DNA from: a virus
DNA: 35,630 bases
Virus record (IMG/VR): IMGVR_UViG_3300048927_000186
Location: 1 to 35,630 of that record
Direction: 5' to 3' (one strand)
In this document: positions 292-34,309 of the stretch, one piece after another
How positions within the stretch are numbered: position 1 is the first letter of the stretch
How the letters are laid out: every line of letters begins with the position of its first letter
Program-made: the position numbers and the translations under genes
The notes under the pieces: generated by a model
Database searches by the model: none
Told to the model about the DNA's origin: nothing
The model's input: the letters and a program-made list of their open reading frames with translations, nothing else

Positions 292-1110
292 ATGATGAAA
301 CGTATCACTGCCATTGCTTTAACGATCGCCGCTGTTCTGGGCACCTCCTACGTCGGCAGCGCATCAGCGTACGACTTTGCCACTGATGCGCAGGGTTCCA
401 CCCAGTGGGCACAAAACACCGAGGGTAAGGTCGACGGCCTTTCTAACGATGTGTGGGGCCTGGGCGAGCGCAACACTCAGCAGGACAAAGCCATCGGGGA
501 TAACGCCTCCGCTATCGGGCACATGAGCCAGCACGTAGGGCAAAACTCCATGCTGATTCAGGCCAACAAAGACGCGATTGACGCGCTGGCTAACGCCCCG
601 AAACCGAAAGACGGTAAAGACGGCGCAGCAGGCCGCGACGGTGTTGATGGTGCTGACGGTCGCAACGGCGCGGACGGGCACGACGGTAAAGACGGCAAGG
701 ACGGCGCGCGCGGGGCTACTGGTGCGGCTGGTGTAGACGGTGCTGTGGGTGCCACTGGCGCCACTGGTGCCACCGGGCGTAACGGTCGCGACGGTAAAGA
801 CGTGTCGCCAGCCGTGGCTAAACAGGTGCAGGCTAACACCAACAAGCTGCGCCAGCACGACCAGCAGATCAGCGACCTGCGCGATGACGTAAAAGGGATC
901 GGCAATAACGCCGCTGCCATGTCCAGCCTGCATTTTAACGGGAACCGCGACAGCTGGGCGATCTCTACCGGATCATACAACGCTGACGGTGTTGCCTTTG
1001 CTGGCGGCTTGCAAAAATCGATCGGTGGTCATCTGGCTACCACGATGCAGGCCTCCTTTGACGGCGAAGGTAATACGATGGTTGGCGCAGGTCTGCACGG
1101 TGATTTCTGA
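292..1110 (+). CDS. Secreted collagen-like protein with YadA-type outer-membrane anchor
   Basis: This 272-residue protein has the layout of a trimeric autotransporter. Residues 1-26 form a signal peptide (basic start, hydrophobic core, likely cleavage after SASA). Residues 60-100 are polar with heptad-like spacing, as in a stalk. Residues 108-170 are 21 uninterrupted Gly-X-Y collagen-type triplets rich in GKD, GRD and GAT. Residues 175-210 look like a coiled coil. Residues 212-272 alternate in four strand-like segments rich in glycine and end in an aromatic residue (HGDF), as YadA anchor barrels do. The family normally trimerises and threads its stalk to the cell surface. I infer that it decorates the infected host's outer membrane, perhaps blocking receptors or acting as an adhesin; a virion fibre is less likely given the signal peptide. 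The start could be 292 or 295. Its stop overlaps the next start. Confidence 0.75.
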   Translation: MMKRITAIALTIAAVLGTSYVGSASAYDFATDAQGSTQWAQNTEGKVDGLSNDVWGLGERNTQQDKAIGDNASAIGHMSQHVGQNSMLIQANKDAIDALANAPKPKDGKDGAAGRDGVDGADGRNGADGHDGKDGKDGARGATGAAGVDGAVGATGATGATGRNGRDGKDVSPAVAKQVQANTNKLRQHDQQISDLRDDVKGIGNNAAAMSSLHFNGNRDSWAISTGSYNADGVAFAGGLQKSIGGHLATTMQASFDGEGNTMVGAGLHGDF

Positions 1111-28101: not shown

Positions 28102-28845
28102 ATGGCAAAACGCAGATTAATTAAACCGTCAGCCCTGAAAGAGCTGTTGAACTGCCGTATGTCCGCAGTGCTGTCGCAATGGGCGCCCTTCACGCAGACC
28201 CATCAGGCGCTTGCTGGTACCGTGCAACACTACGTTGCCGAGCAGGTACTGAAAGGCAACATGCACAGCGTTGCTGATGCGGTCGGCAAGGTGTACGAGA
28301 AAGTTATAAAGTTCGATAAGAAAATGGCAGCTGTCACTGGGGCGTACACGAACTATGTGCAGGAGCTGGCGCGCCAGCCCGGGGCGCAGCTGTGGGTCGA
28401 AAAGAAGTACGATCTAACCCAGCATTTCGGACGCGAGGGCAAGAAAGAGATCGTTGCCCTCGCCGACGCCGTTGTCTGGACGCCCGACCGCACGCTGCAC
28501 GGTATCGACCTGAAAGCGGGTAACAGCCCCGTAGTCGCCGACAACAACCCCCAGCTGCTATCCTACGGCCTCGGCGCGCTGTTCTGCACGCAGTGGCTTT
28601 ACCCGATCGATAAGGTCGCGCTGACCATCCACCAGGGCGGCAGGCCGGACACGTACACCATAGCGCCTGCTGGCCTGTGGATCTGGCAGAAATTTATCCG
28701 TCAGCGTGTTGCAGAGGCTTACGACCTCGCGGAACGGTATGACAAGGGTGAAGTGATCGAAGTCAAATGGTACTCACCATCACCGAACAATTGCAGATTC
28801 TGCAAAGGCAAGACCAAATGCCCGGCAGCTGACAAGGGGGTCTAA
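28102..28845 (+). CDS. PD-(D/E)XK exonuclease (DUF2800, Cas4/RecB-like)
   Basis: The 247-residue protein has an N-terminal P-S-A-L-K-E-L-L-N-C segment and H-Q-A-L-A-G-T-V-Q-H-Y as in RecB-type nucleases. It has catalytic motifs V-A-L-A-D-A-V-V-W and L-H-G-I-D-L-K-A-G (D and x-D-x-K type), then N-P-Q-L-L-S-Y-G-L-G-A, the glutamine motif of DUF2800. It ends in C-R-F-C-K-G-K-T-K-C, which with an N-terminal cysteine could hold an iron-sulfur cluster. It would resect DNA ends for recombination. The start has no visible ribosome site and follows a terminator. The stop overlaps the polymerase start (TAATG). Confidence 0.8.
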   Translation: MAKRRLIKPSALKELLNCRMSAVLSQWAPFTQTHQALAGTVQHYVAEQVLKGNMHSVADAVGKVYEKVIKFDKKMAAVTGAYTNYVQELARQPGAQLWVEKKYDLTQHFGREGKKEIVALADAVVWTPDRTLHGIDLKAGNSPVVADNNPQLLSYGLGALFCTQWLYPIDKVALTIHQGGRPDTYTIAPAGLWIWQKFIRQRVAEAYDLAERYDKGEVIEVKWYSPSPNNCRFCKGKTKCPAADKGV

Positions 28846-31076
28846 TGAGCGATTTTGACGTACTCCATTACGACTGCGAGACCCGCAGCAAACTGGAACT
28901 TAGCGACGTTGGCGCGGCGCGGTACGTGCGCCACAAAAGCACAGAGGTGCTGTCTATACACTGGGCGTTCAACGACGAAGACGTGGTTAACTGGCAGCCC
29001 CTGCGCGGTGAGCCTATGCCGGAACGCCTGCGCAAAGGTCTGGCTGACCCTGACGTGGCAAAATGTGGGTGGAACATCCTCGGCTTTGATAACGGGCTGA
29101 TGCGCGAGAAGTACGGGATCAATATCCCGGTGGAGAGCTGCATCGACGGCATGATCATCGCCATGATGCACAACCTCCCGGCTGGCTTGGACGCCTGCGC
29201 GCGCGCGGTCCGGTCGCCGGAACTCAAAGACCAGGCAGGTAAAGGCCATATTGGGCGGTTTTCTAAACCACTGCCTGCAAACGCCGTACTGCGCCGCCAG
29301 GGTTATGATTTCCGGGACTGGACCACAGACCCGGAGGAGTGGGACGGGTTCATGGGCTACGGCGACCAGGACGTTGTGACCTGCCGCGACACCGTGAACC
29401 GGATCCCCCGCTGGAACTGCACCGACTTTGAGCTGCGCGTGTTACAGGTTAACTGTGCCATTAACGAGCGCGGGATCCCCCTCGATGCTGACATGTGCCG
29501 CAGTGTTGTTCAGCTGGCAGGGCATAAAAAAGCCGAACTAATCCAGCGAGCGATTGAGATCACAGGAGGGATCCGGCCTACCCAGCGCGAGAAATATAAA
29601 CAATGGCTGCTGACCCAGGGCATCGTTATCAGCAACACCCAGAAGGGCACGATGGAGGAGATCCTCCGCCGTAAAAGCACGCCCGACCATGTGCGCACCG
29701 TGGTGCTGGCTGGGCTGGAGCTGGGTAAAACCTCCACCAGCAAATACCAGACGGCACTTGATTGCCTGTGCCCTGACGGTACCGTTAAATGGTCGATTCA
29801 GTACGCTGGCGCACACACGCTACGCTTTGCCGGGCGAGACCTTCAGCCCCATAACTTCCCCCGCGGGACTGTTGAAGCGCAGCGGGTGAAGCTGTTCACT
29901 AAAGGGCATACCGTTACCGGACGAGTACCCCGTGGTGATTTCTTCGCTGATGCGTCCAGCTCTCTTCGTAACATCTTCAAAGCGCCGGAAGGCTGGGACT
30001 TCTCACAGAGCGACTTGTCAGCGATTGAGGGTCGCGGCACCGCATGGATCGCTGGTGAGCAATGGGTGCTGGATGAGTACGCAAAAGGCGCTGACATGTA
30101 CGTTATGGACTTCGCCATGTGCTTTGGCATGGACTACGAAGAACTGTTTGAACGGTTCAAGGCCGGAGACAAAGACGCGAAAGACATGCGCCAGAAGGGT
30201 AAGCCGATCAACCTCGCCTTCGGTTACGCCGGGGGTGTTAATGCTTTCGTGAACATGGCGAAGAACTACGGGATTGACCTCGTGGAAATGGCGCGCGGGT
30301 TGTGGAAAGGCGGCTTGCTGCGAGAGGATGATATTGCCGCAGCGAAAAGGCTATTCCATATGCCTAAATTTAAACACAACATTGTCGCGTCTGGGTTCGC
30401 CGATGATATGGACACATGGGTAGCACTGGATTGTGTCAAGCGCGCATGGCGCAGGGCACACTGGCGCACGGCGGCATTCTGGCGCGAACTGGACTACGCC
30501 ATCCGGCAGGCCGTTGACAACCCCTGCACCTACGACCGCAAAACCGGAGAACTGAAAAAACGTTGCGTGTATACATGTGGCGTCAATGACTGCCTGGAGG
30601 TCGAAGTAGTCAGTCACCTCGGCGATGACTGGCTGCGGATCCGGTTGCCGTCCGGCAGATACCTGTCCTACCTGTGGCCTAAAATTTCTGGACGGAAAAA
30701 ACAACCTGTCTTCACCGGGGAAGTTAACGAGGACGGCAGCCTTGTACTCGAAGACGAGGACGAAGACGACACCGTGATCAGCTACTACGCGCCGAACAGC
30801 GGCGGGATCATGGTTAAGAAGTACATGCACGCCGGAGTTTTCACCGAGAACATTGTGCAGGCGTTCTGTCGTGATGTGCTGTGCGAAGGCTTGATCCGGT
30901 GTGAAGAAGACCCGGAGTTAACACCAGTGTTGCACGTCCACGATGAAGTGGTCTGTTTAACCAAAGGCAACAAAGTCGACCGGATCACCAGCCACCTATG
31001 CCAGCCCGTAGCGTGGGCGCCTGGCCTACAGCTGGCAGGCGAAGGGTGGTTCTTTAACAGGTACCAAAAAGACTAA
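28845..31076 (+). CDS. Family A DNA polymerase, phage type, with 3'-5' exonuclease
   Basis: The 743-residue protein begins with an exonuclease domain: D-C-E-T at 10-13, G-F-D-N near 85 and G-Y-G-D-Q-D-V-V near 170. Polymerase motifs follow: A S-D-L-S-A-I-E-G-R near 388-396, B R-Q-K-G-K-P-I-N-L-A-F-G-Y near 448-460 and C H-V-H-D-E-V near 696-701. It replicates the phage genome. An acidic run (E-D-E-D-E-D-D) lies between B and C. There is no 5'-3' exonuclease domain. Start and stop are both coupled to neighbours (TAATG). Confidence 0.9.
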   Translation: MSDFDVLHYDCETRSKLELSDVGAARYVRHKSTEVLSIHWAFNDEDVVNWQPLRGEPMPERLRKGLADPDVAKCGWNILGFDNGLMREKYGINIPVESCIDGMIIAMMHNLPAGLDACARAVRSPELKDQAGKGHIGRFSKPLPANAVLRRQGYDFRDWTTDPEEWDGFMGYGDQDVVTCRDTVNRIPRWNCTDFELRVLQVNCAINERGIPLDADMCRSVVQLAGHKKAELIQRAIEITGGIRPTQREKYKQWLLTQGIVISNTQKGTMEEILRRKSTPDHVRTVVLAGLELGKTSTSKYQTALDCLCPDGTVKWSIQYAGAHTLRFAGRDLQPHNFPRGTVEAQRVKLFTKGHTVTGRVPRGDFFADASSSLRNIFKAPEGWDFSQSDLSAIEGRGTAWIAGEQWVLDEYAKGADMYVMDFAMCFGMDYEELFERFKAGDKDAKDMRQKGKPINLAFGYAGGVNAFVNMAKNYGIDLVEMARGLWKGGLLREDDIAAAKRLFHMPKFKHNIVASGFADDMDTWVALDCVKRAWRRAHWRTAAFWRELDYAIRQAVDNPCTYDRKTGELKKRCVYTCGVNDCLEVEVVSHLGDDWLRIRLPSGRYLSYLWPKISGRKKQPVFTGEVNEDGSLVLEDEDEDDTVISYYAPNSGGIMVKKYMHAGVFTENIVQAFCRDVLCEGLIRCEEDPELTPVLHVHDEVVCLTKGNKVDRITSHLCQPVAWAPGLQLAGEGWFFNRYQKD

Positions 31077-32218
31077 TGAATTATTTGAACGAGTTCCATA
31101 AACCCACAGCAGCCTGGCTGCGCGAACTGTCGCGCGCGGGCTGCATTGACGAGGCTGTTGTAGATGACCGATCAATCCTCGACGTCAAAGCGTCAGACCT
31201 TATCTGGTTCAACCAGTGCCATTTCTTCGCAGGCATTGCCGGATGGTGCGAAGCCCTGCGCCTCGTCGGGTGGCCTGCCGACATTCAGATCTGGACGGGT
31301 TCCCCGCCGTGCCAGCCCTTCAGCCGCTCGGGTAAAAAGAAGGCCAAAGCAGACCCACGACACCTCGCCCCGCAGTGGCTCGACCTTATTACCGAGGGCA
31401 AGCCTAAATTCATTGCTGGCGAACAGGTTGCGGACGCGATTGCCTGCGGCTGGGTCGATGATCTATGCCTTCACCTGGAAGAACAAGGTTACGCCGTCGG
31501 GTACGTCGTACTCCCAGCTTGTAGCGTCGGCGCACCGCACGAGCGCAAAAGGCTATTCTTTTGTGGTGTCCATGAGTCAGTGCCTGCCGCCGATCGCGAG
31601 CGCCTCGCCGTTGCCGCCCAACGCTATTATGGCACCGCTGGCAGCCTGGCAGTCCCCGACAGTGACACAGATCAGCGTACGCTCGCCAGAAGCAATGGCA
31701 AAGCGCGCCGAACACCGCGCAAAAACCGGGCGTACCAGCCTGGCACCGGGCAACCTTGCGGAGCAAGTGACGCTGTATCTGGGGTCGTGGCCGACAGCGT
31801 CAGCACGCGACGGGAAAGGCGGGTACCTCGGCGGGCGCGTTCGGAACGGGAAGATCAGCACGGATGTGCTGGACGTGACCGCGCAGCTGGCAGCATGGAC
31901 AACGGCGTCGGCGTCGGACGGGCGCAGGGGCGGGACGCTTACGCCGAACATGACCGGGTCGTCACTGGTGCAGCAGGCGCGGTTGACGGAGAGGCTGCCG
32001 GGGCAAACAGACTTACCTTTCCCGATCCGCTTGCTAACGAGTGGTCAGGTGCTGATTGGCTACTCTGCAAAGATGGACGGTTCCGGGCAGTTGCACCCGG
32101 CACATTCCCGCTGGCTGATGGGGTACCGCATCGAGTGGGACGCCTGCGCGGTTACGGCAATGCAATCGTGCCCCGAGTAGGCGCTGAATTTCTTGCGGCC
32201 TTTATGCTTTCGTTGTAA
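31076..32218 (+). CDS. DNA (cytosine-5) methyltransferase
   Basis: The 380-residue protein shows C5-methyltransferase motifs in order: I F-F-A-G-I-A-G-W near 49, IV G-S-P-P-C-Q-P-F-S near 74-82 with the catalytic cysteine, VI G-E-Q-V near 114 (variant of E-N-V), VIII G-A-P-H-E-R-K-R-L-F near 151-160, and X G-Y-G-N-A-I-V-P near 359. Between VIII and X lies an unusual R-, A- and D-rich stretch (about 190-300). The same bases are open for 338 codons in another frame. It could protect phage DNA from host restriction. The start is coupled to the polymerase stop. Confidence 0.85.
   Translation: MNYLNEFHKPTAAWLRELSRAGCIDEAVVDDRSILDVKASDLIWFNQCHFFAGIAGWCEALRLVGWPADIQIWTGSPPCQPFSRSGKKKAKADPRHLAPQWLDLITEGKPKFIAGEQVADAIACGWVDDLCLHLEEQGYAVGYVVLPACSVGAPHERKRLFFCGVHESVPAADRERLAVAAQRYYGTAGSLAVPDSDTDQRTLARSNGKARRTPRKNRAYQPGTGQPCGASDAVSGVVADSVSTRRERRVPRRARSEREDQHGCAGRDRAAGSMDNGVGVGRAQGRDAYAEHDRVVTGAAGAVDGEAAGANRLTFPDPLANEWSGADWLLCKDGRFRAVAPGTFPLADGVPHRVGRLRGYGNAIVPRVGAEFLAAFMLSL
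31164..32180 (+). CDS. Alternate-frame ORF inside the C5 methyltransferase gene
   Basis: A second frame is open for 338 codons within the methyltransferase gene. Its product contains F-T-W-K-N-K-V-T-P-S-G near 101-111, W-P-T-A-S-A-R-D-G-K-G-G-Y, N-G-K-I-S-T-D-V-L-D-V-T-A-Q-L and, at the end, H-S-R-W-L-M-G-Y ... E-W-D-A-C-A-V-T-A-M. From memory these motifs occur in database proteins annotated as parts of phage cytosine methyltransferases. A genuine overlapping gene is therefore plausible; a widely predicted shadow frame is the alternative. The start is uncertain (31164, or 31458 just before the first motif). Confidence 0.45.
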   Translation: MTDQSSTSKRQTLSGSTSAISSQALPDGAKPCASSGGLPTFRSGRVPRRASPSAARVKRRPKQTHDTSPRSGSTLLPRASLNSLLANRLRTRLPAAGSMIYAFTWKNKVTPSGTSYSQLVASAHRTSAKGYSFVVSMSQCLPPIASASPLPPNAIMAPLAAWQSPTVTQISVRSPEAMAKRAEHRAKTGRTSLAPGNLAEQVTLYLGSWPTASARDGKGGYLGGRVRNGKISTDVLDVTAQLAAWTTASASDGRRGGTLTPNMTGSSLVQQARLTERLPGQTDLPFPIRLLTSGQVLIGYSAKMDGSGQLHPAHSRWLMGYRIEWDACAVTAMQSCPE

Positions 32219-33285: not shown

Positions 33286-33735
33286 ATGAAACTGGACGAG
33301 CTGCTGCGAAGCCAGCGGGCAATTGACACGGAAAAAATGGAATACACCAGGTTACCCGCTGGCGCTAAAAGGCCGTGCCGTAACAGACACACCGCCGAGC
33401 GCGGGATCACTTATATGAAGGGTACGGGACGTTACCGTGCTTTCGCCCATCGCCCTTTTTACCACTTCGTCGGTACATACCCAGATCTGGGTCTGGCTGT
33501 GGCAGCACGCGATCAGGCCGAACTTTTGGGTATGCGCCGACTGCACGAGGCAGTACCGGAGCTACTCAACGAAGATGCACAGGACGCAGTGCAGATCAAA
33601 CGAGTGAACCGGAGCCAGTTTTCAGTGGTGTATGTGGTAAGCGGCGGCGCGATGTCCACAGATTGCGAGTCCTACGATGATTGTCTGGCATGGCTGCGGG
33701 ACTGCCGCCAACAAATAAGAGAAAGCAATGCGTAA
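33286..33735 (+). CDS. AP2-like DNA-binding protein
   Basis: The ATG at 33286 has AGAGGG six bases upstream. In the 149-residue protein, residues 37-75 resemble the AP2/ERF fold found in phage and homing-endonuclease proteins: R-G-I-T-Y-M-K-G-T-G-R-Y-R-A-F, then H-F-V-G-T-Y-P-D, then A-V-A-A-R-D-Q-A-E-L. The remainder has a mixed beta and helical C-terminus (S-V-V-Y-V-V-S-G-G-A). It may be a regulator. No nuclease motif is seen. It overlaps the methyltransferase start by 8 bases. Confidence 0.65.
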   Translation: MKLDELLRSQRAIDTEKMEYTRLPAGAKRPCRNRHTAERGITYMKGTGRYRAFAHRPFYHFVGTYPDLGLAVAARDQAELLGMRRLHEAVPELLNEDAQDAVQIKRVNRSQFSVVYVVSGGAMSTDCESYDDCLAWLRDCRQQIRESNA

Positions 33736-34309
33736 ACGTTACAAAGTTATCTACGCGGATCCGCCGTGGTCATATGACAACAAAGGCAGCCGCAACACCG
33801 CGGACAAGCAATACGTCACGACTGGCATTGATGCTTTAAAACGGATGATGGTTTCCTCTCTGTGTGATGAAGACGCGATCTGTTTTATGTGGGTTACGTT
33901 CCCGATGTTGCAGGAAGGGATCGACCTCCTGAAAGCGTGGGGTTTTACGTACAAAACTGTGGCTTTTGTCTGGGTGAAGCAAAACCCGAAAGCAGGTTCC
34001 CCGTTTATGGGGATGGGGAACTGGACGCGTACCAATGCCGAAATGGTCATTATGGGTACGCGAGGAAGCCCTAAACGTCTGGGGAAAGGTGTTCATCAGA
34101 TTATTGAGGAGTTGCAGGGCGATACCCTGGCAGCCCCCCGCGCTGCCCACTCAGTTAAACCTAAACAGATAGCTGATAGAATTGTCGAGTTAATGGGGGA
34201 CGTCCCCCGCCTGGAAATGTTCGCTCGTGAATCTGCGCCCGGCTGGGACGTATTCGGGAACGAGGCACCGGGATCCATAACTGTAAGGACTAAAAAAGCT
34301 CATGGCTAA
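33728..34309 (+). CDS. MT-A70 family adenine-N6 DNA methyltransferase
   Basis: The 193-residue protein has the class signature D-P-P-W at 11-14 preceded by Y-K-V-I-Y-A, then C-F-M-W-V-T near 52 and V-W-V-K-Q-N-P near 82. The MT-A70 segment G-M-G-N-W-T-R-T-N-A-E-M-V-I-M-G-T-R-G follows near 95-113, then A-H-S-V-K-P-K-Q near 139 and E-M-F-A-R near 158. It would methylate adenine in phage DNA, complementing the cytosine enzyme encoded upstream. Its start overlaps the previous gene by 8 bases and its end overlaps the next. Confidence 0.88.
   Translation: MRKRYKVIYADPPWSYDNKGSRNTADKQYVTTGIDALKRMMVSSLCDEDAICFMWVTFPMLQEGIDLLKAWGFTYKTVAFVWVKQNPKAGSPFMGMGNWTRTNAEMVIMGTRGSPKRLGKGVHQIIEELQGDTLAAPRAAHSVKPKQIADRIVELMGDVPRLEMFARESAPGWDVFGNEAPGSITVRTKKAHG

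Follow-up and report, generated by a model that had tools for sequence, protein, structure and literature searches.

A putative C5-cytosine methyltransferase gene of a phage contains, in its +1 frame, a second long open reading frame (ORF). Is this second frame a gene, and if so, what does its product have that the methyltransferase lacks? The window, that is, the whole stretch of DNA analysed, comprises positions 1 to 35,630 (35,630 nucleotides) of IMG/VR record IMGVR_UViG_3300048927_000186. Capsid, portal, terminase and helicase genes elsewhere in the window identify it as DNA of a tailed phage. We refer to the methyltransferase frame (frame 0) as alpha and to the +1 frame as beta; their features are collected in Table 1.

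Table 1. Features of the alpha and beta frames, in positions of the window
Feature	Position	Strand	Basis or remark
alpha	31076..32218	+	380 aa; C5-cytosine methyltransferase with motifs I-VIII and X
Shine-Dalgarno-like GAGG	31151..31154	+	9 nt 5' of the beta ATG
beta	31164..32180	+	gene nested in alpha in the +1 frame; product of 338 aa with WPT-type modules and motif IX
beta ATG of the window	31164..31166	+	over alpha Asp30-Asp31; ATG there in 39% of loci
alpha motif IV (PPCQ, catalytic Cys79)	31304..31315	+	invariant, alignment A4
beta helix and beta-hairpin, residues 77-125	31392..31538	+	overlies alpha motifs VI-VIII, dual coding; AF2 pLDDT 64-91
alpha motif VI (EQV)	31421..31429	+	invariant, alignment A4
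alpha motif VIII (GAPHERKR)	31529..31552	+	alignment A4
alpha residues 190-316, neutral disordered linker replacing the recognition domain	31643..32023	+	AF2 pLDDT 30-46; dN/dS ~1.1 in relatives
beta module, degenerate WPT start (WQSPTVTQ...)	31644..31787	+	sequence, alignment A3
beta module WPTASARDGKGGY...TAQLAA	31788..31895	+	one of a cluster of 23, whose members occupy module positions 1-4 depending on the phage
beta module WTTASASDGRRGG...	31896..32030	+	module clustering
beta motif IX (GQLHPAHSRWLMGYRIEWDACAV)	32085..32153	+	hhalign to motif IX of single-frame actinophage methyltransferases
alpha motif X (GYGNAIVP)	32150..32173	+	conserved, alignment A4

Results

Alpha and its surroundings

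The alpha ATG shares the last base of an ORF directly 5' of it (28845-31076), which is likely to encode a family A DNA polymerase (the match is below the Pfam cut-off). A preliminary description, made from the sequence alone, had proposed the overlapping pair; both ORFs were found at the stated coordinates, all four motifs it quoted are present in the +1 ORF, and GYGNAIVP (alpha) and AVTAMQS (+1 frame) are indeed read from identical nucleotides. An MT-A70 family methyltransferase, adenine type by family, lies ~1.5 kb downstream (33728-34309). Another ORF of the window (292-1110) contains collagen-like triple-helix repeats and is likely to encode a tail or fibre protein.

Alpha matches the Pfam family PF00145 (DNA_methylase) at 5e-19, above the cut-off, and phrog_363 at 7e-63. 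The C5 methyltransferase motifs I, IV, VI and VIII (FAGI, PPCQ, EQV and GAPHERKR) occur in this order. AlphaFold predicts the first 185 residues of alpha with high confidence and residues 190-316 as disordered, and a Foldseek search with the model matches M.HaeIII and M.HhaI. The alpha polypeptide has neither motif IX nor a recognition domain of its own: the region between motifs VIII and X is neutral and disordered, and motif IX is found in beta. That alpha forms 5-methylcytosine is inferred solely from its motifs and family.

Both frames are open in all related loci

Phage records, IMG/VR and bacterial genomes yielded 253 related loci (226 distinct), representing phages, prophages and bacterial contigs; 160 of them were picked by methyltransferase similarity alone, as the best 80 matches in each of two collections. 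A beta-type ORF is open in 253 of 253 loci, always in the +1 frame and always overlapping, and covers a median of 86% of the methyltransferase ORF. With the alpha protein and its codon counts held fixed, 624 stop codons would be expected in the +1 frame of the overlap, summed over 176 loci (~5.8 for the window locus alone), and none is observed. This zero is in part a matter of construction, as it is the beta ORF that sets the limits of the overlap. The +2 frame contains 2409 stops where 2196 are expected, that is, more than expected. The reciprocal count, with the beta protein fixed, gave no stops in the alpha frame of the variable region against 343 expected (148 loci), counted within ORFs that had already been chosen as open. 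Thus, alpha is held open through the variable region although its protein sequence is neutral there.

A tblastn search with beta matched 219 phage records, and the depositors of K1ind2 and PhiXhv-18 annotated both frames. We found no standalone homologue of beta among the loci and genome matches examined. In 248 genomes from the phylum to which locus L180 belongs, the sole beta match was the nested pair of L180 itself, and in 299 genomes from the phylum of L174 every beta match overlaps a methyltransferase ORF. Plasmid matches of beta fall on annotated cytosine methyltransferases, save for two short and weak ones. The N15 gene has no near match in complete E. coli genomes. Nine loci from different alphaproteobacterial genera (L220, L224, L226, L228, L239, L241, L245, L249 and L251) are ~85-94% identical in nucleotide sequence over this region, suggesting either recent spread or strong dual constraint.

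Constraint is divided between the frames

To locate the constraint in each frame, we compared 38 independent pairs of close relatives, scoring substitutions by codon position and by their effect in both frames; neighbouring genes served as controls in 30 of the 38 pairs. The controls diverge by.093,.060 and.279 at codon positions 1, 2 and 3, respectively. Over the first 80 residues of alpha, divergence is much like that of the controls and it is mainly alpha that is constrained; no constraint is apparent over the first ~50 residues of beta. Both frames are constrained at alpha residues 121-145, around motif VI. From motif VIII to motifs IX/X, the periodicity is reversed, with divergences of.185/.042/.035 and.171/.053/.035 in the two halves of this segment, and dN/dS is 1.1 for alpha (95% interval, 0.85-1.48) and 0.17 for beta (0.12-0.22). 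Constraint in both frames is seen again at motifs IX-X. In the conserved C-terminus, the synonymous codons used by alpha are those that preserve beta residues, for example a Trp over Val354 in 216 of 225 loci.

We also scored the frames against synonymous shuffles, but the +2 frame exceeds the shuffles as well, and this score was dropped as proof of frame. The frame assignment therefore rests on the stop codon counts and the codon periodicity.

The preliminary description had proposed that both frames of the pair are conserved across phages, and named two observations that would refute it: stops in the alternate frame of relatives, or constraint confined to the methyltransferase frame. Neither was made; no stop interrupts beta in any of the 253 loci, and between motif VIII and motifs IX/X beta is the only constrained frame. 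The claim that both frames are conserved across phages thus stands, with the correction that constraint is not shared evenly but divided by segments.

Beta probably has its own start site

The start used in the window (31164) was rejected as a universal start of beta, because only 39% of loci have an ATG at this site. Relatives most often have, as the start, an ATG that overlies alpha Asp36-Val37 (61% of loci). Shine-Dalgarno matches of at least 4 nt accompany 70% of the ATGs at position 36 and 57% of those at position 30, against 14.5% of internal ATGs, and an ATG with such a match is present in 161 of 226 loci. The codons of alpha are biased accordingly: Asp36 is encoded by GAT in 76% of cases (background, 34%) and Arg32 by AGG in 27% (background, 4%), and AGG at Arg32 can form, with the next codon, an AGGAG 8 nt before the ATG at position 36. 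This enrichment favours independent initiation of beta over a frameshifted fusion, although separate expression is inferred from sequence features only. Independent initiation is also favoured because one polypeptide cannot hold both readings of the bases that encode motifs VI-VIII.

Beta corresponds to a segment of single-frame methyltransferases

Beta matches phrog_31772 (3e-25) and phrog_1008 (1e-24) in PHROG, and no family in Pfam or NCBIfam. Both PHROG families are labelled 'DNA methyltransferase', yet beta has no catalytic motifs. The AlphaFold model of beta is poor overall (mean pLDDT, 57), ordered at the helix-hairpin (pLDDT 84, 70, 89 and 91 within residues 81-120) and fairly so at motif IX. 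A fold search of the PDB with this model returned nothing significant, and the literature on 'Mte8-like' and 'WPTP' provided no explanation.

An answer comes from C5 methyltransferases of Mycobacterium and Gordonia phages, in which motifs I-VIII, motif IX (EWMMGWPAGW) and motif X follow one another in a single ORF; in Estave1 and Rita, LPTP/STP modules lie between motifs VIII and IX. The beta profile aligns with the VIII-IX segment of the single-frame actinophage enzymes (hhalign E-value, 5e-10) and with the second halves of split ones (6.5e-13), and motif IX of beta alone aligns with the actinophage motif IX (2.5e-5); these E-values refer to single pairwise comparisons. The actinophage segment in turn aligns weakly with M.HhaI over motifs IX-X. 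At the level of profile comparison, the homology of beta to the VIII-IX segment is thus demonstrated, and the 'unknown partner' of the preliminary description is a real gene but not an unrelated one, as it has the modules and motif IX of the single-frame actinophage enzymes.

The actinophage-type loci (L288-L371) comprise 23 with one ORF and 49 that are split, where a +1-frame ORF encodes the C-terminal part and the overlap is long. Motif X is encoded with the C-terminal part in some split loci (L316) and in alpha in others (L342); the window is of the latter type. In Gordonia phage Float294 (L291), the two halves are annotated as two 'DNA methylases'. In Stenotrophomonas phage SOVA965 (L293, 1755-2501), the +1 ORF at 1978-2478 is annotated as 'DNA-cytosine methyltransferase', and no annotation is given to the ORF overlapping it, which contains the catalytic motifs. 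Nine loci from the phylum of L174 (L268, L270-L274, L280, L281 and L285) encode distant, differently built C5 methyltransferases and also contain a +1-frame ORF with motifs such as LNPLFVEALMGWPTGWT at its end. Judged by these putative genes, the arrangement is wider than the nested family described here.

The modules of beta have a median length of 40 aa, and most proteins contain one to four. They recur at differing positions with up to 89% identity, even where the alpha backgrounds are less than 55% identical. Such recurrence suggests an apparent shuffling of recognition modules and is compatible with swappable recognition units, the function of the modules being itself inferred. Motif IX of the window has Arg (MGYR) where relatives almost always have Pro (MGYP/MGLP), and this copy might be impaired.

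Discussion

That beta is a real gene is well supported. The likely product of the locus is, in our view, a two-subunit C5-cytosine methyltransferase encoded by nested frames, with expression, assembly and activity all being inferred. Alpha would be the catalytic half, which binds AdoMet and carries out catalysis, and consists of motifs I-VIII, a long neutral linker and motif X. Translation of beta would begin at a separate ATG within alpha, and its product would consist of a weakly conserved leader, followed by the helix-hairpin, by one or several WPT-type modules and by motif IX. We read beta as the target-recognition and motif IX half because it is homologous to the VIII-IX segment and alpha lacks motif IX and a recognition region; beta would supply both. 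The two chains may then associate into one heterodimeric enzyme, with phage DNA as its substrate and with beta determining the methylated target. Association and target choice by the modules are, like separate expression, inferences. By analogy with the usual role of phage methyltransferases, the methylation would probably counter host restriction. Several observations count against a two-subunit enzyme: the poor model of beta, the lack of a PDB match, the unconstrained leader, the placement of the recognition domain in M.EcoHK31I (see below) and the Arg in motif IX. More tentatively, and with the odds in our view somewhat against it, beta could be a swappable specificity subunit, whose modules are separate recognition units that phages rearrange and combine so as to alter or broaden the set of methylated sequences; alpha would contribute a neutral open linker, and the modules would be readable in both frames.

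How firmly can other explanations be set aside? Programmed +1 frameshifting after motif VIII would yield a single fused methyltransferase and no free beta. Fused single-frame relatives do exist and the first ~50 residues of beta are unconstrained, as this mechanism would allow, but it leaves unexplained the enrichment of Shine-Dalgarno sequences and ATGs, the maintenance of alpha as an open frame up to the conserved motif X, and the helix-hairpin lying over motifs VI-VIII of alpha, where both frames are constrained and could not be held by one polypeptide. We regard frameshifting as unlikely. We give even less credence to beta being a separate protein with another job, such as a regulator or anti-restriction factor, nested in alpha by chance. 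The absence of a structural match leaves room for it, as the function of beta is only inferred; yet beta shares homology with the VIII-IX segment of C5 methyltransferases, always overlaps a methyltransferase ORF in the loci and genome matches examined, and contains exactly the part that alpha lacks.

Finally, the +1 frame could be a shadow ORF, open and conserved merely through the conservation of alpha and a high GC content. High GC does lower the frequency of stop codons, and the synonymous shuffle score is not frame-specific, given that the +2 frame is also above the shuffles. A shadow ORF would account neither for the Shine-Dalgarno and ATG enrichment nor for the homology of the product to single-frame methyltransferases. 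It is rejected on account of the reversed codon periodicity relative to neighbouring genes, accompanied by an alpha dN/dS of ~1 between motif VIII and motifs IX/X, and we consider it hardly credible. The two-subunit methyltransferase remains our preferred interpretation.

Two-polypeptide C5 methyltransferases are known and have been described as exceptions, and fragments of several monomeric enzymes complement one another (PMC3404938). In M.AquI (CYCGRG), the catalytic part and the recognition/motif IX part are on two polypeptides (PMC3404938). The window shares this division, but has motif X on alpha, whereas M.AquI has it on the small subunit; some of the actinophage relatives (L316) resemble M.AquI. 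The small subunit of M.EcoHK31I, like beta, is read from a different frame within the gene of the large subunit. In M.EcoHK31I (YGGCCR), the large polypeptide carries motifs I-VIII and X and the small one motif IX, and the predicted recognition domain is assigned to the large subunit (PMC3404938). The distribution of motifs is the same in the window, but its recognition-like modules are in beta and the corresponding region of alpha is neutral. The methyltransferases of the Mycobacterium phages Estave1, Rita and Graduation and of the Gordonia phage Neville share motifs I-VIII and motif IX (EWMMG..GW) with the window, and differ in being encoded in one frame as one polypeptide.

It is rare for a long same-strand overlap to have one frame dominant in one segment and the other frame in another. 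Three aspects of the present family appear to be new: the wide occurrence of the nested form in phages and prophages, the division of constraint along the gene between the two frames, and the coexistence of fused, split and nested forms. Our survey covered only literature under open licences, and an earlier description is possible.

The overlap is found repeatedly, in phages, prophages and bacterial contigs alike, and would explain a common misannotation, in which two 'DNA methyltransferases' are assigned to one place or only a single frame is annotated. The fused, split and nested forms offer a ready comparison for studying the origin of overlapping genes. A clean test is possible, as synonymous changes could remove one product and leave the other intact. 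The two-subunit reading would place the methylation specificity of a phage family in a frame that often goes unannotated.
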